Part shown: positions 137-29,297 of the stretch, piece by piece
Layout of the letters: every line of letters starts with the position of its first letter
How positions within the stretch are numbered: position 1 is the first letter of the stretch
DNA from: Alkalibacterium sp.
GTDB taxonomy: Bacteria; Bacillota; Bacilli; Lactobacillales; Carnobacteriaceae_A
DNA length: 37,238 bases
Assembly: GCA_020832185.1 (NCBI GenBank)
Contig: JAFIFE010000004.1
Location: forward strand, 1 to 37,238
Direction of reading: 5' to 3'
Made by a program: the position numbers and the translations under genes
Notes under the pieces: generated by a model
What the model saw: the letters and a program-made list of their open reading frames with translations, nothing else
Database searches by the model: none
What the model was told of the DNA's origin: nothing

Positions 137-419
137 ACTCAAAATAGAGGTAGTGGTGAGTTGAGGCTAATGTGTACTTTAGAGGATACTCAAAATAGAA
201 GGTGGGGTGAGTTGAAGGTAGTGAGCGCCTTTGTATGATACTCAAAATAAAAGGTATAGCGAGTTGATGTTAGTGATCATGACTACCTTCAACTCGTGAT
301 TCATTATAATTTGAGTCGCATTTAGTCAGTGGCACTATACGTAACTTAAAAAAAGGACATCAGCGAGTTGAATGATAACTGTATTTTAGACCTCACTCAT
401 TTTCTAAACATATCTGAGT
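137..419. repeat. Array 1 of the 51-52 bp phased ACTCA/TGAGT repeat (6 units)
   Basis: Six degenerate units start at 137, 188, 240, 292, 344 and 395, so the period is 51, 52, 52, 52, 51. Each unit has a left half-site ACTCA (variants ACTCG at 292, ACTTA at 344) and a right half-site TGAGT or CGAGT exactly 20 bp downstream (157, 208, 260, 312, 364, 415). The first three units also share AAAATAGA/AAAATAAA after the left half-site and GAGTTGA on the right. The array lies between two terminators that face each other. I see no open reading frame or CRISPR-like spacer logic; the segment between half-sites is variable. Confidence 0.8.
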
Positions 420-450
420 TAAGGCGTTAAACGAAAGTAGATTTAAAAGG

Positions 451-480
451 AAAAAAATCCTCGTCTTTAGACGAGGATTT
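451..480 (-). terminator. Terminator of the subtilisin-like protease gene
   Basis: A perfect hairpin has arms AAATCCTCGTC (455-465) and GACGAGGATTT (470-480) with a TTTA loop. On the minus strand it is followed by a U-run (A-run 451-457 on plus). It sits immediately after the protease stop codon. Confidence 0.85.
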
Positions 481-485
481 CCTTA

Positions 486-2747
486 TTAAGGTTTAGATTT
501 ACCACCGAAGAAGTAAAATCCGCCGCCAACTGATCCGAGGATAACAACCGCTCCAACAAGAACGACTGGGAGTTCCCCTTCTGATTGACCGAAGGCTGCG
601 CGAGCCGTTTCGGAAGACTCTTCCGATTCAGCTTCTTCCTCATCTGCATCTTCTTCTGGAAGTATTTCTTCACTTTCTTCTGGTTCAATGTCTTCTGATC
701 CGCTGAGAATAGCAGAAGCTAGTTCATTTGGATTAAAGACAGCAAGCGTTCCGACTGACGCTGTATTTCCGACCACTCCACCGTTTGTATAGGTGCTGCC
801 TAGGAGAATCCATTCTTCCTGAGCGGCATTCCACTGATAAAGACTATCTTCGTTGAGTTCCGGTTCATCTGTAAAGAAGCGGTAAGCCATTTCGTCAGGG
901 AAAGCAGTAATCATCTGGCCATCTTGTTCAATAGAGAAGTCAATTAAATCACTTTTTGCAGTGTCACCGTAGTCCATTGTTGACTGGATCGATTCGAATG
1001 AAAGAAGGGCGTTGCCTTCCTGTAAATTACGTGCAGGGATGACCCACTCCATATCGATACGTGCAATCAGCAGGGTGATGTTTCGCTCTCTTATCAGATC
1101 GATCTGGTCAGCTGATAAACTGACGCTCTGAATATGCGCCAGGGTCGAATCAAATGAAATGGCAAGCACGCCACTGTCTGCCACTGCTAATATGTCTTCG
1201 TCGTCTATTGTGGCAATCCCGTTTGAATCATAAGGGCGTATCCAGACGGTAGTTTGAAGGGTTTCTTCATCTTCTAAATCCTCTTCAAGGTCGTCAGTCT
1301 CTTCTTCATCAAGTGATTCCTCATCTGCACTGTCACGTTCATCATCGGTGTCCGTTGTTTCTTCTTCAGACTCATCTGATTCAGTCACTTGCTCTGTGCG
1401 CGCATCAGTGTCCTGTGCATTATCTGTTTCTTCTATTATTACGTCAGATTCTGCTGGGTCTTCTTCTACAGGGTCTTGAGTGTCCTCGGTCACTTCGTCG
1501 CTGCCTTCTTCAGGCTCGCCTTCGACCGATTCGTCCTCGTCTTCAATAGGTTCTTCCTCAGGTTCAGGCTCCTCGATGACTTCCTGCAGGAAATGAACGA
1601 GACCATGTCCGTAAAGAGGATCATGCCCTTCTTCTCCCAAATCTCTCGCTTTTTGAGTCATGCGTGCTCTGATTTGTCGGCCAGATTCATTTGGGTATTT
1701 CTGCATCAGTAAAGCTGCAATACCGGCTACGTGTGGAGTAGCTTGCGATGTGCCGGACATTGTTCTGTATTCACCGGGTTGATTACGTAACCCTAAAATG
1801 GATACGCCAGGTGCGGCCAATTCGTTTTCACTAGCAATCATTGAGTCATGTGCACGCTGCTGGTTCTGGTCCACGTTTGCAACAGCAAGTACTTCTTCGT
1901 ATGCAGCAGGGTAATCAATGACTTTTTTATTTTCGTTGGTATTTCCGCTTGCAGCAACAATCAAGATCCCTTGGTTGTCTGCTGCTTTAATCAGGTCGTG
2001 AATCTCGCTGCTGGGAGAAGAAAAGCCAGAACTGATCGTGATGATATCCATCTGATTTGCAATAGCCCACTCAATCCCGTCTAAAAGACTGCTGGCCTTA
2101 GTACTGGATCCATCTTTTTCATGATAGACTTTCACGCCAAACAGATCGACACCGGGAGCGACTCCCTGAGCGCGAGTATGCTGATGGGCGCCTATGATAC
2201 CAGCCACATGTGTACCGTGGCCGTCATGGTCGTTATCCCAGCTGTCAGGTCCATCATCATAGTCGTCTCCGAAAATACTGTGTCCACCGGCATAGGTAAT
2301 TTCCTCGTGATTATAAAAACCGGTATCGAGTACAGCTACACGAACGTTTCTTCCAGTATAGCCTTCTTCCCAGGCATCAAATGTTCCGATCATGTCCTGG
2401 TTCCAGTCATCAGAATAGATAAAATCATCTTGATTTGACTGAGTGGTTGTCATTTCCTGATCGTACGTGACGCGTCTGACACCCTCCATCTGGGTAATGT
2501 CTTTGATAGATGATGCTGGGACAGACATCATCTGAACGGGCATAAGACTCATAGTCCGAATATTTTTAAATGCGGGATCAAGCTCATCTTCATCAGGGAC
2601 ATCATCATCATAACGTACAATAATATCTATGTACTCATCAGATAAATGACGATCTGTTGCTAAAACACTCGTTGCAGGAATCAGGATACTTAATATTAAA
2701 ATTAGGGTAGAAAGAGCATTCCATACTATTAAACGTTTTTTATTCAC
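486..2747 (-). CDS. Secreted, membrane-anchored subtilisin-like serine protease (S8)
   Basis: This is a predicted extracellular endopeptidase of 753 residues. The first ~30 residues form a signal peptide. Residues ~35-100 look like an I9-type propeptide. The S8 domain covers ~115-395, with catalytic Asp141 (VLDTG), His177 (HGHGTHVAG context), Ser334 (SGTSQATPHVAG) and oxyanion Asn269. Residues ~400-510 are an almost purely acidic Glu/Asp/Ser linker. A further globular part without recognised family spans ~510-680, followed by a second acidic stretch and a C-terminal hydrophobic helix ending GGKSKP. No LPxTG is present, so anchoring by the helix is likelier than sortase attachment. The start is GTG at 2747, with AAGGAG on the minus strand about 11 bases upstream. 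Substrate unknown; nothing links it to sugar use except position. Confidence 0.9.
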   Translation of the reverse strand: MNKKRLIVWNALSTLILILSILIPATSVLATDRHLSDEYIDIIVRYDDDVPDEDELDPAFKNIRTMSLMPVQMMSVPASSIKDITQMEGVRRVTYDQEMTTTQSNQDDFIYSDDWNQDMIGTFDAWEEGYTGRNVRVAVLDTGFYNHEEITYAGGHSIFGDDYDDGPDSWDNDHDGHGTHVAGIIGAHQHTRAQGVAPGVDLFGVKVYHEKDGSSTKASSLLDGIEWAIANQMDIITISSGFSSPSSEIHDLIKAADNQGILIVAASGNTNENKKVIDYPAAYEEVLAVANVDQNQQRAHDSMIASENELAAPGVSILGLRNQPGEYRTMSGTSQATPHVAGIAALLMQKYPNESGRQIRARMTQKARDLGEEGHDPLYGHGLVHFLQEVIEEPEPEEEPIEDEDESVEGEPEEGSDEVTEDTQDPVEEDPAESDVIIEETDNAQDTDARTEQVTESDESEEETTDTDDERDSADEESLDEEETDDLEEDLEDEETLQTTVWIRPYDSNGIATIDDEDILAVADSGVLAISFDSTLAHIQSVSLSADQIDLIRERNITLLIARIDMEWVIPARNLQEGNALLSFESIQSTMDYGDTAKSDLIDFSIEQDGQMITAFPDEMAYRFFTDEPELNEDSLYQWNAAQEEWILLGSTYTNGGVVGNTASVGTLAVFNPNELASAILSGSEDIEPEESEEILPEEDADEEEAESEESSETARAAFGQSEGELPVVLVGAVVILGSVGGGFYFFGGKSKP

Positions 2748-2794
2748 TAAAAAGTTATCTCCTTTTTTATCACTAAATTAAAAATCACTTAGTT

Positions 2795-2823
2795 GTATCA
2801 TTCGCTAAATCATTTTTAAACAA
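2795..2823 (-). promoter_or_regulatory. Candidate promoter for the protease gene
   Basis: Read on the minus strand, TTGTTT (plus 2818-2823), a 17-base spacer and TGATAC (plus 2795-2800) form a plausible sigma-A promoter about 50 bases before the GTG start. Confidence 0.4.
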
Positions 2824-2926
2824 AAGACTCGTGTGATGCGTTATTTTAGTAGAAATTTAACATCATTACAGGTATCTTATCACAAGTGACACACTGAAAT
2901 TGAGTTAAAGGACTTATAAAAAGAGA

Positions 2927-2950
2927 AAATGTGAGAGTCTTGTCACATTT
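2927..2950. promoter_or_regulatory. 24-bp inverted repeat with TGTGA...TCACA core, likely operator
   Basis: The arms AAATGTGA (2927-2934) and TCACATTT (2943-2950) are perfectly complementary around 8 bases. The outline resembles a CRP-type site but has N8 where CRP has N6. It overlaps a possible -35 (TTGTCA, 2940-2945; TAGAAA 2964-2969 could be the -10) of the plus-strand genes starting at 3032. It lies in a divergent intergenic region, so it could serve either side. Confidence 0.5.
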
Positions 2951-3031
2951 CGTTAAAAAAATGTAGAAATAATAAATTTAGTGGTAGAATGTAAGGGATA
3001 TCAACTGAAAGAGAGGGGTGACTTCGTTAAA

Positions 3032-4315
3032 ATGGCTGATTTAGAGAAAGCTATTCGATTTTTCCATACTCAACCGGGAATGGATAAATTATTCAAGTTG
3101 TTTAGAGAAGAATTACTCACACACCGTAAAATCAAAGGGTATGTAAAGTTAGACCTGTTTAAACCGGTAGAATTGGAATCAGTGGCACAATTTTTCCAAG
3201 TCTCCATTGAGTCTTTGAAAACGAAAGGACGAGTCGATCTCGAAGCGTTCGATCGAAAACTGGACAGTCCGCCGTTCAATGGACTCGATTTGACTCAATT
3301 GCTGGAAAGTTATTTCGATGAGAAATTATTGTCTCTCTCCACTAAAGAAGAACGGAAATATTACCTGAAAAAACTGGAAGAGGAATTCTCCCTTCTTAAA
3401 GACTGGATTGCCTACTTGAGAAGAAATACTCATGATACGAGATGGATTCAGGAGCTGATTGAAGAATCCAGTCATCAGTTTGAACAGTATGTGCTGTATT
3501 TGTCAGAAGGCATCAGATTACTGCCCAGTCGACCTATCAGATTATCTGTATTCAGTCAGATTATCACATTGGATGCAGATGCATTTCAGACCTCCCAGCC
3601 ATTAGGAAAGTTATGGCTGCACGTGTTGTCTGAAACAAAACGACTCCATGCCATCGAACCGATTACCCTGCCGGAAAACAGACAGGGGGAAGATGCCTTG
3701 CTTCGTGAATTTAATCTGTTCAGAGAAGACATTTCCGATACGGTGACAGTTGCAAACTGTTACGCAGAAACTCAGGCGGGGTACCATGCCATGTGGGAAG
3801 CGGCTGTTCATACGCGAAGTGTGCTGACTGTTCCTTTGAGAGAAGTCATTAAACTGACGGCTGTTTATCCGGCTCATGAGAAGGGTATCGTCTGGGTCGT
3901 TGATAATCCGGAACTGTTTACGCGAATATTAGATGAAGTGCCGTCGATACCAATGATCTGCCCGAGAGAAAAATGGGACTGCGCGACCTGGGAAGTGTTT
4001 GACCGAATCGAAGACAGTGGATTTGAACTGAGATTTGTCGGAGACTTCACGCCTAAGAGCATTGTGAGAGCTGAGGAGTTACTGCTCCACTACCCTACGC
4101 AATCTCAAACATGGAAAATGGATGTGCCAACCTATTTAAAGGCACGCGATCTGACCGATTATATTAGTGATAAAGACTGCAAACTATTAGACAAGCATCA
4201 TTTAGATTACCTTGCCTGTGTGAAAGATGAAATGAAAGACCGCAGACAACCTGCTTATCTCATGAATATAGTAGATGAGATTATCTATGCCTTGAAAAAA
4301 TTCTATAGTGATTAA
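3032..4315 (+). CDS. Orphan JetD-like protein (TIGR02679 / DUF2399 family)
   Basis: The pattern of the last ~200 residues matches the TIGR02679/DUF2399 family, whose other members act as the JetD nuclease subunit of Wadjet-type plasmid-defence systems. The recognisable block is a Toprim-like fold: VWVVDNP (~residues 287-293) stands where relatives have a glutamate (TENP), and VGDFT (336-340) stands where relatives have GDFDxxG. Both acidic catalytic positions are therefore altered (E to D, second D to T). No JetA, JetB or JetC genes are nearby. Start: ATG 3032 follows GAGAGGGG by 13 bases. An in-frame GTG at 2981 would give 444 rather than 427 residues but lacks a good ribosome site. The beta-galactosidase gene starts 23 bases after the stop, so the two are probably co-transcribed. 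Function in this setting is unknown. Confidence 0.65.
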   Translation: MADLEKAIRFFHTQPGMDKLFKLFREELLTHRKIKGYVKLDLFKPVELESVAQFFQVSIESLKTKGRVDLEAFDRKLDSPPFNGLDLTQLLESYFDEKLLSLSTKEERKYYLKKLEEEFSLLKDWIAYLRRNTHDTRWIQELIEESSHQFEQYVLYLSEGIRLLPSRPIRLSVFSQIITLDADAFQTSQPLGKLWLHVLSETKRLHAIEPITLPENRQGEDALLREFNLFREDISDTVTVANCYAETQAGYHAMWEAAVHTRSVLTVPLREVIKLTAVYPAHEKGIVWVVDNPELFTRILDEVPSIPMICPREKWDCATWEVFDRIEDSGFELRFVGDFTPKSIVRAEELLLHYPTQSQTWKMDVPTYLKARDLTDYISDKDCKLLDKHHLDYLACVKDEMKDRRQPAYLMNIVDEIIYALKKFYSD

Positions 4316-4338
4316 ACAGATGTGAAAGGAAGAGTCTA

Positions 4339-6399
4339 TTGAAAAGAATACAAGTAACAGATGAGGATCGTTTGCTTCACGGAGGAGATTATAATCCCGA
4401 TCAATGGCTGGAGTATCCAGATGTTCTTGAAGAAGATGTCAGACTAATGAAAAAAGCCCACACGAATACTTTTTCAGTTGGAATTTTTGCGTGGGCAGCT
4501 TTAGAACCTGAAGAGGGCAAATTTACGTTTGACTGGCTGGATAAAGTGATCGAGCGGATCGAATCGATCGGCGGGCGCTTTATTCTGGCGACACCTAGTG
4601 GGGCAAGACCTGCATGGATGTCAAAAAATCATCCGGAAGTGCTGCGAGTCGATGCTGAAAGACGCAGACAGCTTCACGGTGCACGCCACAATCACTGCTT
4701 CTCGTCACCTTACTACCGTCAAAAAACACAGGAAATGAATACAAAGCTGGTTGAACGTTACGGCAATCACCCGTCACTTCTGATGTGGCATATTTCCAAT
4801 GAATTTGGCGGCGAGTGTCACTGCGACCTTTGTCAGGCTAATTTCCGCAGCTGGCTGAAAGATAAATATGACAACGACCTGGATAAACTGAACCACGAGT
4901 GGTGGGGACCATTCTGGAGTCATACGATTACCGAGTGGGATCAGATCGAATCGCCTTCTCCGATCGGTGAAAGTGCCGTACATGGGATGAATCTGGACTG
5001 GCGACGTTTTGTCTCACACCAGACAATCGATTTTTACAAAAATGAAATTGTCCCGTTAAGAGAACAGACGCCAGATGTTCCGATCACAACCAACTTCATG
5101 TCGGACAACCCTGAATTTGTGCCGTTCACAGCCTTGGACTACAGCGAATTTGCCAAAGAAGTGGATGTCATCAGCTGGGACGCTTACCCTGCCTGGCATA
5201 ACGATCAGGAAGACACAGCTACCTTGGCTTCACGTGTGGCCTTTTTGAATGATCATTTTTACAGCATGAAACACAAACCATTCCTGTTAATGGAATCCAC
5301 TCCAAGTCTGGTTAACTGGCATGATGTCAATAAAGCGAAACGACCTGGGATGCATCTTTTATCGTCTATGCAGATGCTGGCGCACGGATCGGACGGTGTG
5401 CTGTATTTCCAGTGGCGTAAATCCCGTGGATCATCAGAAAAATTCCACGGAGCTGTTGTAGACCATGACCGGTCCAGTGAGAACCGAGTATTCAAAGAAG
5501 TCGCGAAACTGGGTAAAGCAATGGAAGATATTTCCAGTAACGTAGTAGGCTACCAGCGTAAAGCGGATGTCGGAATTTTATATGACGTTGAAAGTGACTG
5601 GGCCTTAAAAGATACACAGGGATTCGGCCTTAAAACGAAACATTACGGCGAGACGCTGCAGAAACATTATCAGGCGTTCTGGGAACGAAATGTAGCGGTT
5701 GATGTGTTGTCCAAAGAAGATACATTGGATTCCTATAAAGTACTGCTTGTGCCAATGCTTTATATGGTGTCGGAACAAACCGTTGAAAAACTGAAACAGT
5801 TCGTAAAAAATGGCGGAACCCTTGTCGCGACCTATATTACGGGACTGGTCAATGAATCAGATTTAACGTATATGGGTGGGTGGTATGAACCCCTTAAAGA
5901 CTTGTTTGGGATCGAACCGACAGAAACAGATACGTTTTACCCGTCTGATCGCAACTCAGTCATGTATAAAGGCAGATCGTACGAAGTGAGAGATTACGCG
6001 ACCCTGCTTGATGTAAATGATGCGGAAACCCTGGGAACTTACGAAGAAGACTTCTATAAAGAAACAGCTGCAGTAACGAAAAATGAGTACCACGACGGTC
6101 AAACGTTCTATATCGGGGCACGACTGGAAGATGACTTCCACCGTGACTTTTATGGCGAACTGATCGAAGAGCTGGATTTGAAAACGCCACTTGAAGCAAA
6201 ATACAATCGAGGAGTCTCCATTCAGGCACGAGAAGCTGAAGGCAGACAGACGGTCTTTATAATGAACTTTACCGAAGACAATCAGCCTGTTTTACTTCTT
6301 GAGAGCGTTAAAGATATCCAGACCGGTGAAACAGTAGCGGGTGCTTTGGAACTGGCTCCTTATGATGTGAGAATCGTTGAGAAAACTGCAGAAGCATAG
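4339..6399 (+). CDS. GH42 beta-galactosidase
   Basis: Predicted intracellular enzyme (686 residues, no signal peptide) hydrolysing terminal beta-galactosides. The N-terminus (LLHGGDYNPDQW) is the classic GH42 opening. The acid/base is Glu155 in HISNEFG and the nucleophile is Glu319 in LLMEST. Cys120, Cys160, Cys162 and Cys165 form the zinc-binding cluster found in many GH42 enzymes. The trimerisation and C-terminal beta domains are present and the length is normal. It starts with TTG, preceded by GAAAGGAAGAG. It follows the JetD-like gene closely, and a LacI-type regulator lies 170 bases downstream. GH42 members often act on galacto-oligosaccharides or plant galactans rather than lactose, and no lactose transporter is seen here. 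I see no clear terminator after it. Confidence 0.93.
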   Translation: MKRIQVTDEDRLLHGGDYNPDQWLEYPDVLEEDVRLMKKAHTNTFSVGIFAWAALEPEEGKFTFDWLDKVIERIESIGGRFILATPSGARPAWMSKNHPEVLRVDAERRRQLHGARHNHCFSSPYYRQKTQEMNTKLVERYGNHPSLLMWHISNEFGGECHCDLCQANFRSWLKDKYDNDLDKLNHEWWGPFWSHTITEWDQIESPSPIGESAVHGMNLDWRRFVSHQTIDFYKNEIVPLREQTPDVPITTNFMSDNPEFVPFTALDYSEFAKEVDVISWDAYPAWHNDQEDTATLASRVAFLNDHFYSMKHKPFLLMESTPSLVNWHDVNKAKRPGMHLLSSMQMLAHGSDGVLYFQWRKSRGSSEKFHGAVVDHDRSSENRVFKEVAKLGKAMEDISSNVVGYQRKADVGILYDVESDWALKDTQGFGLKTKHYGETLQKHYQAFWERNVAVDVLSKEDTLDSYKVLLVPMLYMVSEQTVEKLKQFVKNGGTLVATYITGLVNESDLTYMGGWYEPLKDLFGIEPTETDTFYPSDRNSVMYKGRSYEVRDYATLLDVNDAETLGTYEEDFYKETAAVTKNEYHDGQTFYIGARLEDDFHRDFYGELIEELDLKTPLEAKYNRGVSIQAREAEGRQTVFIMNFTEDNQPVLLLESVKDIQTGETVAGALELAPYDVRIVEKTAEA

Positions 6400-6491
6400 G
6401 AACTATGTTTAACTAGTCAGGAAGTCTGAGTTTAAGTGATCCAGACAAATAGTGTATGATAGAAATGTTCACATTTTTTGGGAAGTTTGTG

Positions 6492-6521
6492 TTCATGGAT
6501 GTTCATTATTCTTGTTATAAT
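6492..6521 (+). promoter_or_regulatory. Candidate promoter of the LacI-family regulator gene, with TGTTCA repeats
   Basis: A perfect -10 TATAAT (6516-6521) has a weak -35 TTCATG (6492-6497) 18 bases upstream. TGTTCA occurs as a direct repeat at 6466, 6490 and 6500 around this promoter, a possible operator. The maltose-type palindrome found elsewhere in the window is absent. Confidence 0.45.
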
Positions 6522-6568
6522 AAAAGAGTAAATCAAGTGCAATAAGGGAGATAGAAAGGAGAGAGCGT

Positions 6569-7543: not shown

Positions 7544-7549
7544 AAAATG

Positions 7550-7590
7550 AGACTAAAATGATCATCTAACTGATTGTTTTAGTCTTTTTT
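7550..7590 (+). terminator. Terminator after the LacI-family gene
   Basis: The arms AGACTAAAA (7550-7558) and TTTTAGTCT pair and are followed by a T-run ending at 7590. It lies directly after the regulator stop codon. Confidence 0.85.
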
Positions 7591-7609
7591 ACATTCAGTT
7601 AAAGTTGAA

Positions 7610-7687
7610 GAACTAATAAAGTTTTCTTCTATTAGTTCGGGTGATAATGTATAATAAATTAAAAATAAAAAAGTGAGAACTTTCTCA
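7610..7687 (+). promoter_or_regulatory. Promoter of the lipoprotein pair flanked by two inverted repeats
   Basis: TATAAT (7650-7655) is a strong -10. Upstream, GAACTAATA (7610-7618) and TATTAGTTC (7630-7638) form a 9-bp inverted repeat across the -35 region, where only a weak TTCTAT is seen. Downstream, TGAGAA-CT-TTCTCA (7674-7687) is a 14-bp palindrome about 12 bases past the predicted transcription start. The position suits a repressor site. AGGAG at 7694-7698 is the ribosome site for the gene at 7705. Confidence 0.5.
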
Positions 7688-7704
7688 TTAAATAGGAGAC
7701 TATA

Positions 7705-8331: not shown

Positions 8332-8358
8332 ACTATAATGAGAAAAGGGGGAGTAATA

Positions 8359-9078: not shown

Positions 9079-9098
9079 AAGTAAAATAAGTTAGACGA

Positions 9099-9132
9099 GA
9101 AAGGATTGATTATAAAAAATCAGTCCTTTTTT
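9099..9132 (+). terminator. Terminator after the lipoprotein pair
   Basis: AAAGGATTGATT and AATCAGTCCTTT pair (one G-U) around ATAAAA, followed by Ts ending at about 9132. Confidence 0.85.
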
Positions 9133-9254
9133 GTAAGTCAGTCGATCTCTAGAAACGTTGACTTGAATAAGGAGTATTGATAAAACTGTTCCTTATATTA
9201 AAAAAAGATTAGAATTCAATTGGCAAATGAAAAGTACTTTAAGGAGGAACATGT

Positions 9255-10572: not shown

Positions 10573-10906
10573 ACTCGGAAGTGACCTGATTTAGAGTTAT
10601 AAGAATGAAACCATTATTTTATTCACTCGAAATATAATTGATCTGAGTAGTAAGAATTAACTGTTTATTTTAGTCACTCAAAAGTTAGAAGAGCTCGACT
10701 GACAGTAAGTGATCGATTATTTTAGCAACTCGCAGGAAAAACCAAACGAGTAGTTAATATTTTTAAGTTATTCTTATTACTCATAACTCTATGTGAAGTG
10801 AGTTTTTAAAAGAGGCGTATGATTCTAATAACTCAATAGAAACACTATTCTCAGTTGCCAAAATAGACTCTCTATTATTCAAACTGAAACGTTAATGAGT
10901 TCGAGT
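10573..10906. repeat. Array 2 of the 51-52 bp phased ACTCA/TGAGT repeat (7 units)
   Basis: Left half-sites (ACTCA, ACTCG or ACTGA) start at 10573, 10625, 10676, 10728, 10779, 10831 and 10883: periods 52, 51, 52, 51, 52, 52. Right half-sites (TGAGT, or one-mismatch forms AGAGT, CGACT, CGAGT, TCAGT) start 19-20 bp later at 10593, 10644, 10696, 10747, 10799, 10851 and 10902. A T/A-rich block such as ATTATTTTA or ATTCTAATA precedes most left half-sites. The array fills most of the 720-base gap between the dehydrogenase terminator and the maltose operator at 10975. No gene is visible in the gap. Confidence 0.8.
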
Positions 10907-20186: not shown

Positions 20187-20223
20187 GCTCTCCTTACACC
20201 TATTGTAGGGAGAGCAGTTTTTT
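20187..20223 (+). terminator. Terminator after malG
   Basis: GCTCTCCTTACA and TGTAGGGAGAGC pair with one mismatch and are followed by AG and six Ts. Confidence 0.85.
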
Positions 20224-20231
20224 ACTCATTT

Positions 20232-20245
20232 TGTAAGCGTTAACT
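20232..20245. promoter_or_regulatory. Perfect cre (CcpA) site before the amylopullulanase gene
   Basis: TGTAAGCGTTAACT matches the cre consensus TGWAARCGYTWNCW at every position. It lies about 25 bases before the ATG, between the malG terminator and the ribosome site AGAGGAG. No separate promoter is evident, so transcription may come from read-through. Confidence 0.75.
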
Positions 20246-20269
20246 AAAAAAGAAGAGGAGTTAAAATAA

Positions 20270-23200
20270 ATGAACAGAAAATCGAGTTCTTTCTTTTCAG
20301 CTTTCTTGGTTGTATTAATGGTCTTTCAGTCGTTGGCAAGTGTTCTTCCGGTCTTTTCAGAAACGGTCAATGCCGAAACTGAACGGCAGTTACGGATTCA
20401 TCTGGAGACGGATTCTATTGATAACGATTTATCTCTATGGATATGGGGAGATGTATTAAGGGAATCATCAGAAACTTCTGAATGGCCGAGTGGGTCGGCC
20501 TTCAATGAAGAGAATCAGACAGATTTTGGGTATTATCAGGATATCCTAATTCAATCGGATGCAGAAGAAATCGGGCTGATTCCAGTTTACGGCGATGAAT
20601 CCAAGTTTATAGATGAAGATGTCATCATTTCTTTATTTGAAGGGGTCGAAGATGTATGGATCAGAGAAGACGGATCAGTATATTACTATGAGCCGATTGA
20701 CTTTGAGTCTCCAACTATTCGTCTTCACTTTTATGATGAATCTGAGGAGTATTCGGACTACGGAGTATGGTTCTGGGGCGCAGCGCCTAACCATCCACAA
20801 AATTGGCCGGACGATGCCATCCGCTTTTCTGCCGATCAGGTAGGCCCTTATGGGGCGTATATCGATATTCCTGTAAACGAAAACGCTACTGGATTTTCGT
20901 TTCTGATATTGAATACGGCTACAGGCGACCAGACAGGGGATCTTATTTTTGAAGATCTAAACACTCATCAGCAGGTATTTCTGAAAGCTGGTGTGGAGGA
21001 GGTCTTTACTAATCCATTCTACCGCTCACCAGAGCCAGAGGATGAAAGAGAAGAAACAGAGGGAGAAGGAGATATTTCGGTTTCTGCTTCTGTGAATCGT
21101 TCGTTTGATTATTCAGAGCACGGCCTCCTGGATGTTGAGATTGAAAACAATTCAGACTTGGGGATTGACCGAATAGCTGCAGACGTGTCATCAATTGGTG
21201 GACGCGATAACTTATCGATTTCACCGGAATTGGCCCGTGTCACATTGTCGGCTGATCACACGGTGGCGCCAGGGACGTATCCGATTACGGTTACGGTATG
21301 GGACGAGAATAATGGACGTTACACCACTCAAACAGAGGTGACCATCGAGGCCCGAAATAAAGCCGATGGGGAGCGTGACTGGGATGAAGAAATTATTTAC
21401 TTCATGCTGACAGACCGCTTTGCTGACGGAGACGAATCAAACAACAATCCGTATGGACTTGACTATGAAAATGCAGACAATCCACGTGGAACGTATCAGG
21501 GTGGGGACTTCAAAGGGGTCACTCAAAATCTTGAGTACCTTGATGAATTAGGCGTCTCAACTATCTGGATCACTCCTATTGTTGAAAACGTTGGCTATGA
21601 TGTCGAATATGCAAGTTCAGATGGAAGTTACTATGGGTATCACGGGTACTGGGCATCAAACTTTGAGGAACTGAATCCTCATTTGGGTACACTGGCTGAA
21701 TTTCATGAACTGATCGATTCAGCAGCAGAACGGCATATAAATATCATGGTTGACGTCGTCTTGAATCACCCAGGTTACGGCTTACATCCAGACAATGGTG
21801 TACCAAATCCGCCTGAAGGGTATCCAACTAATGAAGACCGTGCACGTTTTGACGGCATGATCAGAGAAAATCCGGGTGGGAATGACTTGACTATGGAACT
21901 GGCTGGTTTACCTGATTTCATCACTGAACGTCAGGACGTCAGAGAACAGCTGGTCGAGTGGCAGGCTGATTGGATCAGCAAGTCTACAACTCCAAGCGGA
22001 AATGCTATTGCAAGTTACCGTGTGGATACAGTGAAACATGTGGATGACACCACATGGCAGCATTTCAAAAACGAATTAGTAGAAAAAGATCCTGGCTTCC
22101 GACTCATTGGTGAATCATGGGGAGCAAATTACAATAGCCATACACGTTACTTGAACTCAGGAATGATGGATAGCCTGCTTGATTTCAGCTTTAAAGACTA
22201 TGCCTCCAATTTTGTTAGAGGAAATCTGGAAGCAGCAAACAACCAGCTGATCGAACGCAATCAGGCACTTTCAAGCGACGCTACACTAGGACAATTTTTG
22301 GGCAGTCACGATGAAGCAGGCTTTTTGCATAATCATGGCAATGATGAAGGCATGCTCAAGTTAGCTGCATCGCTTCAAATTACGGCTAAAGGACAGCCCG
22401 TTATCTATTACGGTGAAGAATTGGGGCAGACAGGGACAGATAACTGGCCACAATACGATAACCGTTATGATTTAGCATGGGAAGACGTTGAAGGAAATGA
22501 CATTCTGGCTCATTATCAGGAAGTGATCGGATTCAGAAATGAGTTCAGTGAGGTCCTCTCAAGAGGGTCAAGAAGCGAGTTCTTAACTTCTGATGACAGT
22601 GAATGGATGATGGTGGAACGTGCGCTGAATGATGAATCAGTCTTTATGGCATTCAATGTATCAGAAGAAGAGCAGACGATTTCGGTACAGGTAGAAAATG
22701 AGAATGTGATCGTAATGGATCACTATTCAGGCGTTGACTACACTGCAACGGAAGTGGATGGCAGTTATGTACTGACGTTTACAGTACCGGCAATGGCAGA
22801 CGGTGGAACAGCGCTGCTTTCAACTGAAAATGGCACGTTTATTTCTCAGGAAGTCGAGACGCCTCAAGAAGAGAGCGAAATAGAAGACGGCTTTTTTCGT
22901 CTCCATTTTGCGACGCTTCCAGAGAATGATCCGGCGAATCTGGGGCTTTGGGTCTGGGAAGATGTAAAAGACCCGTCTGATACACTAGGCTCATGGCCAA
23001 ACGCTGCGTTATCATTTGGGGATGCAGTCAGTACAGATTATGGGTATTACATGGATGTGGAACTCGCTGATGATCCGGAAGTCATCGGATTTTTGATTAA
23101 TAACCGCAGCGGGTCAAATTTGACAGGAGATTTAAGGGTAGGCCTACTGACTCCTGAAATGAATGAGGCATGGCTCGATCACGAGTATACTATTTATCCG

Positions 23201-26041
23201 TATGAACCCTTATTCGAAGAAGATATGATTCGTATCAACTATCAGAGACCAAATGACGATTATGAAAATTGGGGCTTGTGGACGTGGGGCGATGTACTGG
23301 CACCCACTGAAAACTGGGCATCTGGTGCGTTGGATAGTGACGGCACAGGTCGAAACGGGACTTATTTCAACCTTGAACTCGCTGAAAACGCACAGGAAAT
23401 CGGATTCTTATTTGTACAAAAAGATGGGTCTGCACAGACAACCGATTACAGGTTCCAAGGCTTGTCTGAACACAGTCAGTTATTTGTACGTGAAGGAGAC
23501 GATACTATTTACACCAATCCTTATTATGTCAGAGAAGATGGCATGATCAGAGCCGAACAGATATCTGAAACTCACATTGAAGTGTTTTTCCATTCAACAG
23601 AAGCTCTATCGGAAGAGCAGCTTCAGGATTTGATTCAAGTCACTGATAAAGAGGGGATTGCAGTTGCGTTTACCTCGGTTACAGTAGACCATGACCGTAA
23701 TGCTGTCATATTAGAAGGAAACTTTTCATTAACTCTAGCTCCATACAGTGTGGTGTTTGATGGAAAACAAGTAGATGCCCGTATGGGATGGCGCTTGAAA
23801 GATGAATTATATGCATACGATGGTGCGTTGGGTCTTGACCTCCGCGAAGACGGCACAGCTGACTTGAAAGTATGGTCACCAAGTGCAGATGCTGTCCGAG
23901 TCGTGTTATACGATAAAGACAACCAGTCTGAAATTGTTCGAGATGATATTGAAATGACATCAGTGGATTCAGGTGTCTGGGAAATCGTTCTTGATGAAGA
24001 ATCTACAGGTTTAGACGACGTGACGGGTTACTTCTACCATTTTGAAATTGAACGCAATGGGGAAGCCGTATTGGCTTTAGATCCTTATGCCCGTTCGATG
24101 GCAGCCTGGGATAGCAGCGACCCGGACAATTACATCGGTAAAGCAGCTATTGTGAACCCGAGTCATATTGGACCAGAACTGGAGTACGCAAACATTGAAG
24201 GGTACGAAAAACGCGAAGATGCGATCATTTATGAAATTCATGTCAGAGATTTCACTTCAGATCCTTCGATCGAAGAAGAGCTTGACAGTCAATTTGGCAC
24301 ATTCAGTGCATTTATTGAGAAACTGGATTACATTGAAAGTTTAGGTGTGACTCATATACAAATGCTTCCTGTCATGAGTTATTTCTTTGCGAACGAGTTT
24401 GAAAACAGCGAACGCATGCTAAACTATTCTTCAACGAACACAAACTATAACTGGGGTTACGACCCACACAGTTATTTCTCCTTGACTGGGATGTACTCAG
24501 AAAATCCTGAAGACCCAGCTAAACGAATTGAAGAATTCAAACAGTTGATTGACGAAATTCACAGTCGCGGAATGGGTGTTGTACTGGACGTTGTCTACAA
24601 CCATACGGCGAGAGAGCATATTTTTGAAGATCTGGAACCAAACTATTATCACTTCATGGATCAGGACGGCACATCCCGTACAAGTTTCGGCGGTGGACGT
24701 TTAGGAACCACGCATGAAATGGCGCGACGTATTTTAGTCGATTCTATCACTTACTGGGTCGAAGAGTTCAAAGTAGATGGATTCCGCTTCGATATGATGG
24801 GTGACCATGATGCAGAAAGTATCCAAATCGCTTTTGATGAAGCGAAGGAACTGAATCCGAATATTTTAATGATCGGTGAGGGCTGGCGTACATTTGTAGG
24901 AGACGAAGGATACGAAGACGTTATGCCTGCAGATCAGGACTGGATGCAGCATACGGATGCAGTCGGTTCATTCTCAGATGATTTCAGAAATGAACTGAAA
25001 TCCGGATTCGGCAGCGAAGGGCAACCACGTTTTATCACTGGTGGGGCGCGTTCAATCCAGCAGATTTACGATAACCTGACAGCTAATCCGCATAACTTTA
25101 CAGCGACAAATCCGGGCGATGTGGTTCCTTATATTGCAGCACATGATAACTTGACGCTGCATGACGTAATCGCGCAGTCTATTCAAAAAGACCCTGAAGA
25201 TCACCAGCAGGAAATCCATCAGCGTATCCGTTTAGGCAACTTGATGGTACTGACAGCTCAAGGGACACCGTTCATTCACGCTGGTCAGGAATTTGGACGG
25301 ACAAAACAATTCCGAGATCCAGACTTTATCGAACCAGTTGCGGCTGAAATGGTTCCATATAAATCAACATTCATGACGAATGCTGATGGCAGTCCATTCT
25401 TGTATCCGTACTTTATTCATGACTCGTATGATTCAACAGATGCAATCAACATGTTTGACTGGAACAAAGCAACTAACGAAGAAGCTTACCCAATCAATAC
25501 ATTGACGCAATCTTACACAACGGGATTGATCGAGCTGAGAAGAAGTACAGATGCCTTCCGTAAAGGAACAATGGATGAAATTTCAGACATGGTCTCACTA
25601 GTCGATGTTCCTGAAATAGGTGAAACAGATTTAGTTATCGTCTACCGCGCAGAAGATTCGAATGGAGATGTCTACTACGTCTTCGTGAATGCCGATGACT
25701 CTGAACGCACATTGACTCTAAATACTGATTTGACTGAAGGCTACGTCATTGTAGACGGAGAAAACGCAGGCACGCGTGCAATCGCTAGTCCTGAAGGCAT
25801 TTCTGTTGAAGAAAGTGGCGTAACACTAGCTCCATTAACTGCTTCAGTAGTGGTGTTGACAAACAGAGACATGGAAGATAATCCGGACGAAGAGGATGAA
25901 AAAGAAGAAAGTCATCCTAGAGATAAAGCGCCGGGTCAACAAGAGGGACACCCTAGAGATAATGCACCAGGACGACAAGACGGTCATCCCAGGGATAATG
26001 CTCCAGGAAGAAACAATCCCAAAGGCAAGTCTCCAAGGTAA
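20270..26041 (+). CDS. Extracellular amylopullulanase with two GH13 catalytic domains
   Basis: 1923 residues, signal peptide ~1-35. Order: two PUD/CBM41-like starch-binding modules (~38-135, ~148-255), an Ig-like segment (~270-360), an alpha-amylase GH13 barrel (~365-850; Asp586, Glu615, Asp681), two more CBM41-like modules (~875-970, ~985-1085), pullulanase accessory and CBM48-like domains (~1090-1290), then a type I pullulanase barrel (~1300-1780) with YNWGYDP at 1393-1399, nucleophile Asp1508, acid/base Glu1537 and Asp1626. The tail (1882-1923) has three 12-residue HPRD(N/K)APG repeats. Both catalytic triads look intact, so it should cut both alpha-1,4 and alpha-1,6 links. The two-active-site layout is known from Bifidobacterium ApuB and an alkaliphilic Bacillus amylopullulanase. 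A LPxTG anchor is absent. Confidence 0.93.
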   Translation: MNRKSSSFFSAFLVVLMVFQSLASVLPVFSETVNAETERQLRIHLETDSIDNDLSLWIWGDVLRESSETSEWPSGSAFNEENQTDFGYYQDILIQSDAEEIGLIPVYGDESKFIDEDVIISLFEGVEDVWIREDGSVYYYEPIDFESPTIRLHFYDESEEYSDYGVWFWGAAPNHPQNWPDDAIRFSADQVGPYGAYIDIPVNENATGFSFLILNTATGDQTGDLIFEDLNTHQQVFLKAGVEEVFTNPFYRSPEPEDEREETEGEGDISVSASVNRSFDYSEHGLLDVEIENNSDLGIDRIAADVSSIGGRDNLSISPELARVTLSADHTVAPGTYPITVTVWDENNGRYTTQTEVTIEARNKADGERDWDEEIIYFMLTDRFADGDESNNNPYGLDYENADNPRGTYQGGDFKGVTQNLEYLDELGVSTIWITPIVENVGYDVEYASSDGSYYGYHGYWASNFEELNPHLGTLAEFHELIDSAAERHINIMVDVVLNHPGYGLHPDNGVPNPPEGYPTNEDRARFDGMIRENPGGNDLTMELAGLPDFITERQDVREQLVEWQADWISKSTTPSGNAIASYRVDTVKHVDDTTWQHFKNELVEKDPGFRLIGESWGANYNSHTRYLNSGMMDSLLDFSFKDYASNFVRGNLEAANNQLIERNQALSSDATLGQFLGSHDEAGFLHNHGNDEGMLKLAASLQITAKGQPVIYYGEELGQTGTDNWPQYDNRYDLAWEDVEGNDILAHYQEVIGFRNEFSEVLSRGSRSEFLTSDDSEWMMVERALNDESVFMAFNVSEEEQTISVQVENENVIVMDHYSGVDYTATEVDGSYVLTFTVPAMADGGTALLSTENGTFISQEVETPQEESEIEDGFFRLHFATLPENDPANLGLWVWEDVKDPSDTLGSWPNAALSFGDAVSTDYGYYMDVELADDPEVIGFLINNRSGSNLTGDLRVGLLTPEMNEAWLDHEYTIYPYEPLFEEDMIRINYQRPNDDYENWGLWTWGDVLAPTENWASGALDSDGTGRNGTYFNLELAENAQEIGFLFVQKDGSAQTTDYRFQGLSEHSQLFVREGDDTIYTNPYYVREDGMIRAEQISETHIEVFFHSTEALSEEQLQDLIQVTDKEGIAVAFTSVTVDHDRNAVILEGNFSLTLAPYSVVFDGKQVDARMGWRLKDELYAYDGALGLDLREDGTADLKVWSPSADAVRVVLYDKDNQSEIVRDDIEMTSVDSGVWEIVLDEESTGLDDVTGYFYHFEIERNGEAVLALDPYARSMAAWDSSDPDNYIGKAAIVNPSHIGPELEYANIEGYEKREDAIIYEIHVRDFTSDPSIEEELDSQFGTFSAFIEKLDYIESLGVTHIQMLPVMSYFFANEFENSERMLNYSSTNTNYNWGYDPHSYFSLTGMYSENPEDPAKRIEEFKQLIDEIHSRGMGVVLDVVYNHTAREHIFEDLEPNYYHFMDQDGTSRTSFGGGRLGTTHEMARRILVDSITYWVEEFKVDGFRFDMMGDHDAESIQIAFDEAKELNPNILMIGEGWRTFVGDEGYEDVMPADQDWMQHTDAVGSFSDDFRNELKSGFGSEGQPRFITGGARSIQQIYDNLTANPHNFTATNPGDVVPYIAAHDNLTLHDVIAQSIQKDPEDHQQEIHQRIRLGNLMVLTAQGTPFIHAGQEFGRTKQFRDPDFIEPVAAEMVPYKSTFMTNADGSPFLYPYFIHDSYDSTDAINMFDWNKATNEEAYPINTLTQSYTTGLIELRRSTDAFRKGTMDEISDMVSLVDVPEIGETDLVIVYRAEDSNGDVYYVFVNADDSERTLTLNTDLTEGYVIVDGENAGTRAIASPEGISVEESGVTLAPLTASVVVLTNRDMEDNPDEEDEKEESHPRDKAPGQQEGHPRDNAPGRQDGHPRDNAPGRNNPKGKSPR
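25913..26020 (+). repeat. Three 36-bp in-frame repeats at the 3' end of the amylopullulanase gene
   Basis: Each encodes HPRD(N/K)APG plus four variable polar residues (25913-25948, 25949-25984, 25985-26020), followed by the basic end KGKSPR. The amino acids are better conserved than the codons, suggesting selection on the peptide. Confidence 0.8.
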
Positions 26042-26063
26042 TCGATAGATGAGTTTATTGACA

Positions 26064-26218
26064 GGTCCCTGTAATGCAGGTGATAAAGAACAGGGGACTC
26101 TCGTTTGAGGGTAGACTTAATACGTTTGATACACCTCATTTGGGGGTAAGCCTCAGATAATGAAATATTAATAACGGGCACTCTCCTTTTCTGTGCATTA
26201 GGCACGAAGGGAGAGTGC
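26064..26218 (+). terminator. Two stem-loops after the amylopullulanase gene
   Basis: The first is GTCCCTGT (26065-26072) with ACAGGGGAC (26090-26098, one bulge), with a poor T tail. The second is a tall branched hairpin, GCACTCTCC (26178-26186) with GGAGAGTGC (26210-26218) and an inner GTGC/GCAC helix, also with a weak T tail. Together they probably terminate or process the message. The rest of the 298-base gap shows no gene. Confidence 0.55.
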
Positions 26219-26291
26219 GTTAGTTTAACCAGAATACTGACTGGAAATAGGGAGAGATATACAGAACTGGATTATATCTAAGACGACCTAA

Positions 26292-26297
26292 TATAAT
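26292..26297 (+). promoter_or_regulatory. Possible -10 box (TATAAT) before the second pullulanase
   Basis: A perfect TATAAT with no convincing -35. If used, transcription would start about where the AAAGGAG ribosome site begins (26304), leaving almost no leader. This is unusual and may be coincidental. Confidence 0.25.
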
Positions 26298-26339
26298 AGG
26301 GACAAAGGAGAGGATCGTATCAATACGAATTTTAAAGAA

Positions 26340-28829
26340 ATGAGCAACGTTGATGTAACTAGCGCAGTAATTATTTCAGAAAATCAGATGGAAGTCTTTC
26401 TCAATTCTGTTGAACATTTGAATCAGGAAGATATAAAAACGAGTTGGGAAGTCAAAAATAGCAATGGAGACGTCAATGCGATTGAATCCGTATCAATCGA
26501 CACAGATAGAAAAAGCGTGATCTTAACGAGCCCGTTCACTGTGGATGATGCACCCTATACTGTCCATTCAAAAGACAAAGAAATTCCGGTACTAATGGAC
26601 TGGAAACTAAAGGACAGCTATTACGCTTATGATGGAGAATTAGGTGCCCGTCTCCATCAAGATGGAACAGCAACGTTGAAAGTATGGTCACCTAGTGCAG
26701 ATGCTGTTCATGTCATTCTGTACGATAAAGAGGATCAATCCCGTGTAGTCAAAGATGACATAAGGATGGAAAGCATCGAATCCGGAGTATGGGAAGTAAG
26801 CTTAGATGAAAAAAATACGGAAATAGCTGATGTGAAAGGCTACTTCTATCATTATGAAATCAAAAGGGGAGACAAGTCCGTACTGGCTCTAGATCCTTAC
26901 GCGCGTTCACTGGCTGCCTGGAACAGTAACGATCCGAATACTGATATAGCCAAAGCGGCTATCGTCAACCCGGAAATACTAGGGCCAAAGCTGAATTATG
27001 CCGCTATCGAAGGGTACGAAAAACGTGAAGATGCAGTCATATATGAAGTTCATGTGAGGGACTTTACGTCTGATCCGTCAATCGATGACCAACTGGACAG
27101 TCCGTTCGGGACATTCAGTGCGTTTATCGAAAAACTGGACTATATAAAAAGTCTTGGGGTCACCCATATTCAGCTGCTGCCAGTCATGAGTTTCTATTTT
27201 ATCAATGAATTTAAAAACAATGAGCGCATGCTTCATTATGCTTCAAATGATTCGAATTATAATTGGGGTTACGATCCTCAGAGCTACTTTGCATTGACCG
27301 GCATGTACTCTGAAAATCCGCATGATCCTGAGAAGCGTATAGAAGAATTTAAACATCTGGTCGATGCTATCCATGGATGTGGAATGGGTGTGATTCTCGA
27401 TGTGGTTTACAATCATACTGCCCGGGTGGACATATTCGAGGATCTGGAACCGAATTATTATTACTTTATGGATAAAGACGGTAAACCAAGAGAAAGTTTT
27501 GGTGGCGGACGACTAGGTACGACGCATGCGATGTCCCGGCGTATCCTTGTTGATTCGATCGTCAACTGGACAAAAGAGTATAAAGTGGATGGCTTTCGTT
27601 TCGATATGATGGGAGATCATGACGCTGAAAGCATTCAAATCGCTGTAGACGAAGCTGTAAAACTGAACCCGAATAGTCTGGTGATTGGCGAAGGATGGCG
27701 AACCTATGTAGGGGATGAAGATTCAGAAGAGATTTTAGCTGCAGATCAGGACTGGATGCAGCACGCTGAAGGGGTGGCATCATTTTCTGATGATTTCCGT
27801 AATGAACTGAAGTCTGGTTTCCTGAATGAAGGAGAGCCGAGCTTCCTCACGGGAGGAGCACGTTCTGTTCAGCGTATTTATGACAATCTGACTGCACATC
27901 CACATAACTTCACTGCAACGGATCCGGGGAGTGTGGTTCCTTATATTGGAGCCCATGATAACCTCACGCTGCATGATGTGATTGCACAGTCTATCCAGAA
28001 AGACCCGGACGACCATCAAGAGGAAATACACAAGCGGATTCGCTTAGGAAATCTGATGGTGCTGACTGCTCAAGGGATTCCATTTATTCATGCAGGCCAA
28101 GAGTTTGGGCGGACTAAGCAGTTCAGAAATGAGCGTTTCACGGAACGCGTTCCAGATGAAGAAACACCTGACCGTTCCGTTTTTATGACGGATACAGAAG
28201 GACAGCCATTCGGTTACCCCTACTTTATTCATGATTCAGTGTACGCAACGGACGCTGTCAACATGTTCGACTGGAACAAAGCATTGAACAAGGAAGCTTT
28301 CCCAATCAATACGTTGACACAAACTTACACAGCTGGCTTGATTGCGCTGAGACGAAGCACAGATGCTTTCTGCAAAGGAACCATGGAAGAAATTGCAGAA
28401 AAGGTATCTCTGGTTGATGCACCTGAAATAAAAGAGACGGATCTGGTGGTCGCATACTGCGCAGAAGATTCAAACGGCGACCGTTATTTTGTGTTTGTGA
28501 ATGCGGACGACACTGAACGCACTCTGACACTGGATACTGATTTGACCCATGGAGACATTATTGTTGACGGTCAAACGGCAGGTACGCTTGCAATAGGGAA
28601 TCCAGAAGGCATTTCAGTAACAGAACAGGGCGTGACTTTAGCTCCACTGACTGCTGCTGTCATCGTCCTCACTAAACAAGATATGACAAACCTGCCGGAC
28701 GCAGATACCGGCTCTGCTATCGGAAAAAGACTGCCATCAAAAGCATCTCCTCTATGGACCATAGGCGCAGCTGGACTATTAAGCATCCTGACGGGTGTAG
28801 CCCTAAACCTACTCAAGAAGAAAAAATAA
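26340..28829 (+). CDS. Type I pullulanase, paralogue of the C-terminal half of the amylopullulanase
   Basis: 829 residues. It aligns with amylopullulanase residues from about 1090 onward. YNWGYDP (307-313), Asp422, Glu451 and Asp540 are all present, with exactly the same spacing as in the larger enzyme (115, 29, 89), so the alpha-1,6 debranching site is intact. No signal peptide is present and the frame is closed by TAA at 26289. Yet the C-terminus looks like a surface anchor: LPSKA, a ~22-residue hydrophobic stretch, and KKKK. ATG 26340 lies 30 bases after AAAGGAGAGG, too far; at the proper distance only an in-frame ATC (26319) is seen, so the true start is uncertain. It may be a truncated duplicate that lost its export signal and amylase half, or a cytoplasmic debranching enzyme with a leftover anchor. 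Confidence 0.85.
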   Translation: MSNVDVTSAVIISENQMEVFLNSVEHLNQEDIKTSWEVKNSNGDVNAIESVSIDTDRKSVILTSPFTVDDAPYTVHSKDKEIPVLMDWKLKDSYYAYDGELGARLHQDGTATLKVWSPSADAVHVILYDKEDQSRVVKDDIRMESIESGVWEVSLDEKNTEIADVKGYFYHYEIKRGDKSVLALDPYARSLAAWNSNDPNTDIAKAAIVNPEILGPKLNYAAIEGYEKREDAVIYEVHVRDFTSDPSIDDQLDSPFGTFSAFIEKLDYIKSLGVTHIQLLPVMSFYFINEFKNNERMLHYASNDSNYNWGYDPQSYFALTGMYSENPHDPEKRIEEFKHLVDAIHGCGMGVILDVVYNHTARVDIFEDLEPNYYYFMDKDGKPRESFGGGRLGTTHAMSRRILVDSIVNWTKEYKVDGFRFDMMGDHDAESIQIAVDEAVKLNPNSLVIGEGWRTYVGDEDSEEILAADQDWMQHAEGVASFSDDFRNELKSGFLNEGEPSFLTGGARSVQRIYDNLTAHPHNFTATDPGSVVPYIGAHDNLTLHDVIAQSIQKDPDDHQEEIHKRIRLGNLMVLTAQGIPFIHAGQEFGRTKQFRNERFTERVPDEETPDRSVFMTDTEGQPFGYPYFIHDSVYATDAVNMFDWNKALNKEAFPINTLTQTYTAGLIALRRSTDAFCKGTMEEIAEKVSLVDAPEIKETDLVVAYCAEDSNGDRYFVFVNADDTERTLTLDTDLTHGDIIVDGQTAGTLAIGNPEGISVTEQGVTLAPLTAAVIVLTKQDMTNLPDADTGSAIGKRLPSKASPLWTIGAAGLLSILTGVALNLLKKKK

Positions 28830-28849
28830 GTCGAATGATTAAATGATGT

Positions 28850-28882
28850 GGGCTCTTGCTTAAAGCAAGAGCCTTCTTTTTA
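28850..28882 (+). terminator. Terminator after the second pullulanase
   Basis: GGCTCTTGCT and AGCAAGAGCC form a perfect 10-bp stem with a TAA loop, followed by TTCTTTTT. Confidence 0.9.
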
Positions 28883-28913
28883 TAGATCCTAGAGAAAGCC
28901 TCCTATTTTCAGT

Positions 28914-29297
28914 ACTCACTAATAGATGAACACTGACTTGTAAGAATCGAATACATATTGTCACTACTGGCGAAAGACCTCCAGATGAGTAGAAAGAATC
29001 AGGCAGAGATTGTTGAAGCTGAGATGAAAAATGGTATGAGCTTTAATAATAAGGAGTTTATTGTTTAAACTGAAAAGAATTCATGCGTGAGTTAGTAAAA
29101 TAATAACGCCATTGTTTAAACTGAAAAGAATTCATAACTGAGTTAGTAAAATAATAACGTCATTGTTTAAACTGAAACCAATTCGGTATTGAGCTTCAAG
29201 AATAAAGGTGCGATTGTCGCAAGTGAAGACTCTAATGATTTGAGTTTGAACAATACGATAGAGATTCTAATTACTCAAGAGAATAGTTGTACCGAGT
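28914..29297. repeat. Array 3 of the 51-52 bp phased ACTCA/TGAGT repeat (8 units)
   Basis: Left half-sites start at 28914 (ACTCA), 28966 (ACTGG), 29018 (GCTGA), 29069, 29120, 29171 (ACTGA), 29222 (AGTGA) and 29273 (ACTCA): periods 52, 52, 51, 51, 51, 51, 51. Right half-sites (TGAGT; variants TGACT, TGAGC, CGAGT) follow 19-20 bp later. The units at 29069 and 29120 are almost identical over the full 51 bp (ATTGTTTAAACTGAAAAGAA opening), so part of this array duplicated recently. It fills most of the 700-base gap between the pullulanase terminator and the operator at 29416. The remaining ~120 bases (29298-29415) show nothing clear. Confidence 0.85.

Follow-up and report, generated by a model that had tools for sequence, protein, structure and literature searches.

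Three intergenic arrays in the window

The stretch of DNA analysed here (the window) comprises 37,238 nucleotides of an Alkalibacterium sp. (assembly GCA_020832185.1, contig JAFIFE010000004.1) and corresponds to contig 21 of a 2.64-Mb genome labelled G000; G and L numbers label genomes and loci, L222–L229 and the like being array loci. Three intergenic regions of the window contain arrays of a repeat unit in which a left half-site, ACTCA, is followed by a right half-site, TGAGT. Array 1 (positions 137 to 419) has six units, with left half-sites at 137, 188, 240, 292, 344, and 395 and right half-sites at 157, 208, 260, 312, 364, and 415. Array 2 (10573 to 10906) has seven units, with left half-sites at 10573, 10625, 10676, 10728, 10779, 10831, and 10883 and right half-sites at 10593, 10644, 10696, 10747, 10799, 10851, and 10902. 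Array 3 (28914 to 29297) has eight units, with left half-sites at 28914, 28966, 29018, 29069, 29120, 29171, 29222, and 29273 and right half-sites at 28934, 28986, 29037, 29088, 29139, 29190, 29241, and 29293.

A chain search (ACTCA, 19–20 bp, TGAGT, 31–32 bp, ACTCA, repeated) recovered the three arrays at exactly the coordinates given in an earlier note on this sequence. The chain scores were 34 for array 1 (12 half-sites), 30 for array 3 (16), and 29 for array 2 (14), and the next-best, fourth chain in the window scored 7; the maximum was 8.5 over 40 dinucleotide shuffles and 7.5 in the reversed sequence. Over a grid of alternative spacings, the true cell gave 34, a neighbour with a shared gap value 24, and the rest at most 12. 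In addition, a word-free lag autocorrelation peaked at 51–52 in the three arrays (z = 5.8, 5.5, and 13.3). The 21 units that had been claimed for these regions are confirmed, and the claimed steps of 51 or 52 bp between unit starts hold across all three arrays.

Array 1 represents a sub-type: its outer words, read from the printed cores, are TAGT/ACTA in place of AAT/ATT, and it was weak (best 12.7 bits) on a model derived from arrays 2 and 3. ACTGA is the commonest left half-site of array 3 (three of eight). Array 1 holds tandem copies (2.3 copies at 78%), and a recent tandem duplication of the 51-bp unit lies at 29060 to 29184 within array 3 (2.5 copies, 91% match); Tandem Repeats Finder detected just the least diverged portions of these two arrays. 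Because of the tandem copies, not all units of the window are independent.

Unit anatomy and constancy of spacing

When the 42 half-sites of the window were lined up, the half-site was found to be aTTnTnnnaACTCR, with its mirror on the right and a second conserved block about 9 bp outward; three sites in this profile (10850, 10882, and 29292) were one base off their best register (10851, 10883, and 29293). One instance of the outer ATTnT block is the ATTTT at 10616 to 10620, which occupies profile positions −9 to −5 relative to the left half-site at 10625. The spacing and places noted for the ACTCA and TGAGT half-sites thus stood, and the words themselves had to be revised to the longer ATTnTnnnAACTCR, with ACTGA favored in array 3. 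Two-unit windows of arrays 2 and 3 aligned to TTATTnTnnnAACTCA ... TGAGTTnnnAnAATAA. The symmetric core, TGAGTTnnnAnAAT-N9-ATTnTnnnAACTCA, has a near-constant length, and the linkers are mostly 14–16 bp.

Gap lengths were counted over 78 arrays of all genomes for half-sites above 4 bits, in a scan that permitted 27–37 and 15–25 bp and charged 0.3 for each extra base. Measured from a right half-site to the left half-site that follows, the gap was 32 bp in 393 of 456 cases and 31 bp in 56; from left to right, it was 19, 20, and 21 bp in 180, 275, and 26 of 485 cases, respectively. These gap-length distributions indicate that the rigid piece is a 36–37-bp palindrome across two adjacent units and that the linker inside the unit is more flexible. 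Periods of 51–53 made up nearly all counts, near a whole number of helical turns, and the contacts recur about every five turns. The first half-site was a left one in 53 of the 78 arrays and the last a right one in 55; since arrays tend to open left and close right, the unit as noted earlier also describes array ends. Chains of fewer than six half-sites were excluded, and those scoring below 45 were left out of the neighbour, unit-pairing, dyad, linker-alternation, and gap counts, the cut-off in the identity analysis being 25. L081 and L082 are two contig ends and probably one array, so that the total of 78 may double-count, and L083 is cut by a contig end. In G002, the homogeneous array of L081/L082 probably broke the assembly, its halves ending contigs C14 and C49; its flanking genes are orthologous to those at L099 of G005.

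The composition around the dyads, which lies outside the search pattern, was compared in 74 arrays, four of the 78 having no two 32-bp cores. In all five groups (two of Alkalibacterium, Marinilactibacillus-type, g30, and Bacillaceae), the linker dyad was an AT tract (W, that is, A or T, 0.84, 0.97, 0.83, 0.98, and 0.84) and the core dyad was GC-rich (W 0.38, 0.15, 0.12, 0.25, and 0.16). The core and linker dyads are about 26 bp, or 2.5 turns, apart, so that the minor grooves at the two centres would point in opposite directions, as they would in DNA curved around a protein.

In seven arrays of the window's genome (L028, L030–L033, and window arrays 2 and 3), core spacer identity was 0.28–0.34, near chance, and contact (half-site) identity was 0.74–0.90; between the units of array 2 the two values were 0.33 and 0.75, and between those of array 3 they were 0.34 and 0.87. 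Core gaps in these seven arrays were 32 bp, apart from the final ones of L028 (31) and L030 (30). Other arrays, among them most of those in G021 and the Neobacillus arrays, were more homogeneous (spacer identity 0.55–0.89, most above 0.7). Conservation between orthologous arrays was measured in two pairs, out of six sets displayed: contacts were kept at 131 of 159 positions versus 183 of 253 other bases in the first pair (Fisher p = 0.024), and at 149 of 200 versus 154 of 307 in the second (p = 4e-8), which has a 306-base length difference. The selection on geometry that had been proposed, with the spacing kept and the sequence drifted, is well supported by the seven diverged arrays together with the gap counts.

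These data also bear on decaying minisatellites, in which tandem duplication would have made the arrays and regular spacing would be a relic. Recent duplications are present and some arrays are homogeneous, as this explanation predicts. However, decay would affect every position equally and introduce insertions and deletions, whereas the diverged arrays keep half-sites and core lengths at near-chance spacer identity, and the same geometry occurs with other words in other families. Minisatellite decay is therefore highly improbable.

Higher-order block duplication was rejected, identity at lags 2 and 3 not being clearly over that at lag 1; the visible exception is L229 (2057–2341; C23 of this genome, ~17 kb), where two unit types alternate with spacing 31/21. 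A coding repeat (51 bp equal 17 codons, and open frames run over some 51-bp arrays) was dropped because many arrays have 52-bp steps. A further sub-type with other cores and a period of 51 was seen at L035:4918–5157 and L027:6482–6691 of this genome, L035 being about GACTGGGCGCTATA ... ATCCCACTC.

In all 602 units, the left and right halves paired no more than they did in within-array shuffles (largest z, 2.3). Cores within arrays showed a slight pairing excess (z = 2.9 and 2.6 at two positions; 359 cores), and positions 6–7 gave z values of 0.4 to 1.6 in the diverged arrays of the window's genome plus one G003 array (54 cores). Between arrays and genomes, a change in one core half goes with a change in the other (z up to 13.6), as expected if one symmetric binder reads both; a hairpin predicts likewise. 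Transcribed RNA hairpin arrays, serving as terminators, sponges, or processing sites, would be in line with this joint change, with the palindromic consensus of cores and units, and with the slightly raised pairing of two core positions in a single sub-family. On the other hand, the unit halves are unpaired beyond shuffles (z = 3.1 in one subset), the core z within arrays does not exceed 2.9, and the window has no Rfam match above the gathering score. RNA hairpins, tested across cores and units and unsupported within arrays, are thus very unlikely; the scarcity of co-variation at paired positions within arrays argues against them, and the arrays would act as DNA.

Distribution, turnover, and genomic placement

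A model from arrays 2 and 3 (R1) combined with a profile chain revealed nine arrays elsewhere in the window's genome, and a broader model (R2) revealed three more clear ones, L222, L224, and L229 (chain scores 48, 41, and 77). Four weaker candidates, L223, L225, L226, and L227 (33, 27, 23, and 24), were picked out of the whole genome and exceed only the null for R2 loci, which consisted of 96 shuffled 4-kb loci (maximum, 17.8). The window's genome therefore has at least 15 arrays. R1 matched at E 1e-4 in 10 of 41 relatives' genomes, the window's genome included, and R2 matched in 16 of 295 genomes of the order. Four of the R2-matching genomes belong to another family (g30) and show a period of 51 with a core spacing of 31 in nearly all cores; another R2 match, G127, has no chain scoring 25 or more.

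An exact two-core pattern was found at 41 loci in genome contigs of Alkalibacterium, Marinilactibacillus piezotolerans, Neobacillus cucumis, and Bacillus sp. ISL-18. A class-wide model (R3), for which 10 candidates per genome were scored, gave at least two of 398 genomes, the window's genome and G432. The Bacillaceae arrays came from a pattern in which part of the geometry is imposed, and tandem repeats let one match count twice; by our estimate, one or two families could conceivably have matched by chance in a set of 84,980 genomes. The unforced dyad composition and the array words of G432, which as read fall between the Bacillaceae and Alkalibacterium types, argue for a true relation between the arrays of the two groups, common descent being a separate, further claim. 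The earlier note would have given up its reading had the 51–52-bp phasing been confined to the three regions or had spacing elsewhere drifted freely with the sequence; the phasing is well above chance in the window's genome and its relatives, and no such drift was seen.

The gap between ecfT and truA contains an array in G000, G002, G005, G008, and G011; in G004 the array is short and weak (score 29), and in G003, G007, and G009 none was detected. In G006, the lag-51 z of this gap was 3.6, compared with a null 95% value of 3.4 and a maximum of 4.3, and it was not counted as an array. In G001 (L194), the gap contains an array with a lag of 51 whose words, AAACTG and CAGTTT, are 30 and 21 bp apart, the period thus being divided unlike that of other arrays. 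G010, with a weak paralogous truA match only, was left out of this comparison. The array words in this gap differ between species, and the 51–52-bp period stays. Upstream of the orthologue of the gene that follows window array 3, an array was found in G000 and G003, weak signals near the null maximum were found in G007 (17.7) and G004 (18.3), and none was found in the other 8 of 12 genomes. These comparisons indicate that arrays come and go and that words are replaced while the period persists. The sites may be either inherited with their arrays or refilled.

Presence or absence at one site between species is also in accord with the main rival explanation, selfish or mobile palindromic repeats, in which a transposase or recombinase would bind the half-sites and spread or expand the arrays, like the REP-associated tyrosine transposase (RAYT) on repetitive extragenic palindromes and bacterial interspersed mosaic elements (REP/BIME). 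The arrays are palindromic, intergenic, and variable in length, some being nearly homogeneous, and a Y1 transposase (PF01797) occurs in four array-bearing genomes (G002, G003, G005, and G009). PF01797 also covers non-RAYT IS200/IS605 transposases. In the search of 18 genomes, 15 of them array-bearing, five were positive in all; there was no match in the window's genome, G001, G004, G008, G011, G019, the array-rich G021, G060, G074, G088, and G135, whereas G010, without detected arrays, had seven. With the transposase missing from 11 of the 15 array-bearing genomes, the window's own among them, the REP/RAYT reading is unsupported. Selfish repeats are further opposed by the near absence of hairpin co-variation within arrays and by the lack of any match to plasmids (three arrays), phages (one array), or viral contigs (two-core pattern), and we consider them unlikely. 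A recombinase other than the Y1 transposase may lie behind the arrays.

Among the 71 arrays with both neighbours, 39 lay in codirectional, 25 in convergent, and 7 in divergent gaps, compared with 37, 6, and 13 of the 56 non-array gaps of at least 100 bp in the window's genome. In codirectional gaps, the median distance of the array was 123 bp from the upstream gene end and 225 bp from the downstream start. The neighbours are diverse and in the window's genome look like unrelated housekeeping genes, as read from their translations. No gene family occurred beside more than five arrays, recurrences being pairs, trios, or one amylase-family group, and a common neighbour gene was thereby ruled out as an explanation.

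In the window, array 1 lies between two gene 3′ ends (the left side read by eye). Its right flank contains an intrinsic-terminator-like stem (451 to 484, minus strand) of a subtilase-like gene (486–2747, minus strand; Pfam Peptidase_S8), and a similar stem (28850 to 28874, plus strand) stands after the gene at 26340–28829 and before array 3. Stems before arrays 1 and 2 were noticed by eye, and the terminator scans did not report them. The region from 6569 to 31228 is a starch/maltodextrin locus. Besides a LacI regulator, it encodes a protein of 1923 aa with both amylase and pullulanase-associated domains, one of 829 aa that belongs to the amylase family, and other members of that family. Pfam assignments of seven window proteins placed arrays 2 and 3 upstream of amylase-family genes, as would be the case if the arrays were ordinary operators, each the upstream control region of one neighbour gene. 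The frequently convergent and rarely divergent placement of the 71 arrays, the seemingly unrelated housekeeping neighbours in the window's genome, and the position of array 1 between gene 3′ ends speak against operators, which are quite unlikely. Elsewhere in the genome, L029:7940–8438 lies between two transporter-like genes (by eye) that are 86% alike, a gene duplication beside an array.

A proposed nucleoprotein array and its comparison with known systems

The symmetry, the helical spacing, the AT- and GC-rich dyads, and the lack of paired co-variation within arrays suggest a protein bound in phase along one face of the DNA. With a probability of roughly 62%, we propose that each array offers phased, cooperative sites to a putative DNA-bending protein that makes two contacts per half-site. 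Its subunits, each with two contacts about 10 bp apart, would occupy the cores side by side and would bend or wrap the DNA, giving a regular nucleoprotein body. Because arrays are frequent in convergent and rare in divergent gaps, this body might, less securely, serve chromosome structure or separate transcription units as an insulator or roadblock, in contrast to a normal promoter operator.

Several points weigh against this proposal. The contact identity of 0.74–0.90 is partly circular, since the contact columns were chosen from profiles of these arrays and half-site matches defined the chains; the near-chance identity of spacers whose length stays constant escapes that circularity. The homogeneous arrays indicate that tandem duplication also builds arrays. 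Linker lengths alternate no more regularly than in shuffled order (642 of 4000 permutations equal; 20 arrays), and alternating linker lengths as a tracking of helical phase along the whole array were dropped as not significant. One unit position reached a z of 3.1 in the subset of the window's genome plus G003 (61 versus 60.1 expected), and in a 52.3-bp sub-family core positions 6 and 7 pair above chance (z about 3; 71 cores). The p-values of placement (Fisher p = 0.0016 for convergent enrichment and 0.05 for divergent depletion) are optimistic, because the baseline consists of unannotated open reading frames of one genome and the arrays are partly orthologous. Finally, no binding protein was found, and neighbouring gene families recur beside at most five arrays each.

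More tentatively, and at somewhat less than even odds, the arrays might constitute a new chromosome-borne class of nucleoprotein arrays in Bacilli, in which a putative bending protein with a fast-changing word preference would occupy about 3 to 29 units at a five-turn pitch between genes. The geometry would be inherited and the words replaced, giving a sequence-programmed nucleosome-like or insulator element. If so, the arrays would be dispersed chromosomal sites at which the geometry of a protein array is selected harder than sequence, and would provide a direct route to a protein that organises DNA in lactic acid bacteria and some Bacillaceae, as well as a natural series of arrays with changed DNA words and unchanged architecture.

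The earlier note had stated that it knew of no described element with this pattern, and none was recognized in searches of one open-access library, judged by titles and the first lines of abstracts, which is narrower than a full literature survey. CRISPR loci have constant repeats and unique spacers of about 30 bp; the degenerate repeats and short linkers of the arrays, mostly 14–16 bp, fit the statement that they are not CRISPR. Mycobacterial interspersed repetitive units (MIRU-type repeats) are dispersed intergenic tandem repeats of about 50 bp that are not known to be palindromic with fixed half-sites; by this description they share the approximately 50-bp intergenic tandem form with the arrays and differ in palindromy and fixed half-sites.

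REP/BIME elements prefer gene 3′ ends. In the excerpted text of PMC2817692, they are described as imperfect palindromes outside genes that alternate in arrays of regular spacing, and BIME-2 is reported to bind DNA gyrase. The arrays described here are likewise extragenic, alternating palindromes. They differ in that almost no paired changes occur within an array, the Y1 transposase is lacking in 11 of 15 array-bearing genomes, the words are degenerate within one genome, and the 51–52-bp geometry is rigid.

A further comparison is with the RemA target regions of Bacillus subtilis. According to an excerpt of PMC8481266, their DNA is repetitive, rich in AT, and poorly conserved, is thought to wrap around a ring protein, and has 7-bp direct repeats at 3-bp gaps upstream of promoters. 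The poorly conserved, repetitive, AT-rich DNA is shared with the arrays, whereas the 7-bp direct repeats are not. RemA (PF04025) was rejected as the binder, there being no match in 20 genomes in a search that was positive in 3 of 14 control genomes, including B. subtilis. The regions bound by the viral protein p6 of phi29, in the excerpted text of PMC10899789, carry a periodic bendability pattern that is read by a multimer. As described there, p6 follows a 24-bp dimer period and no specific words, whereas the arrays reported here combine a period of 51–52 bp with specific half-sites.

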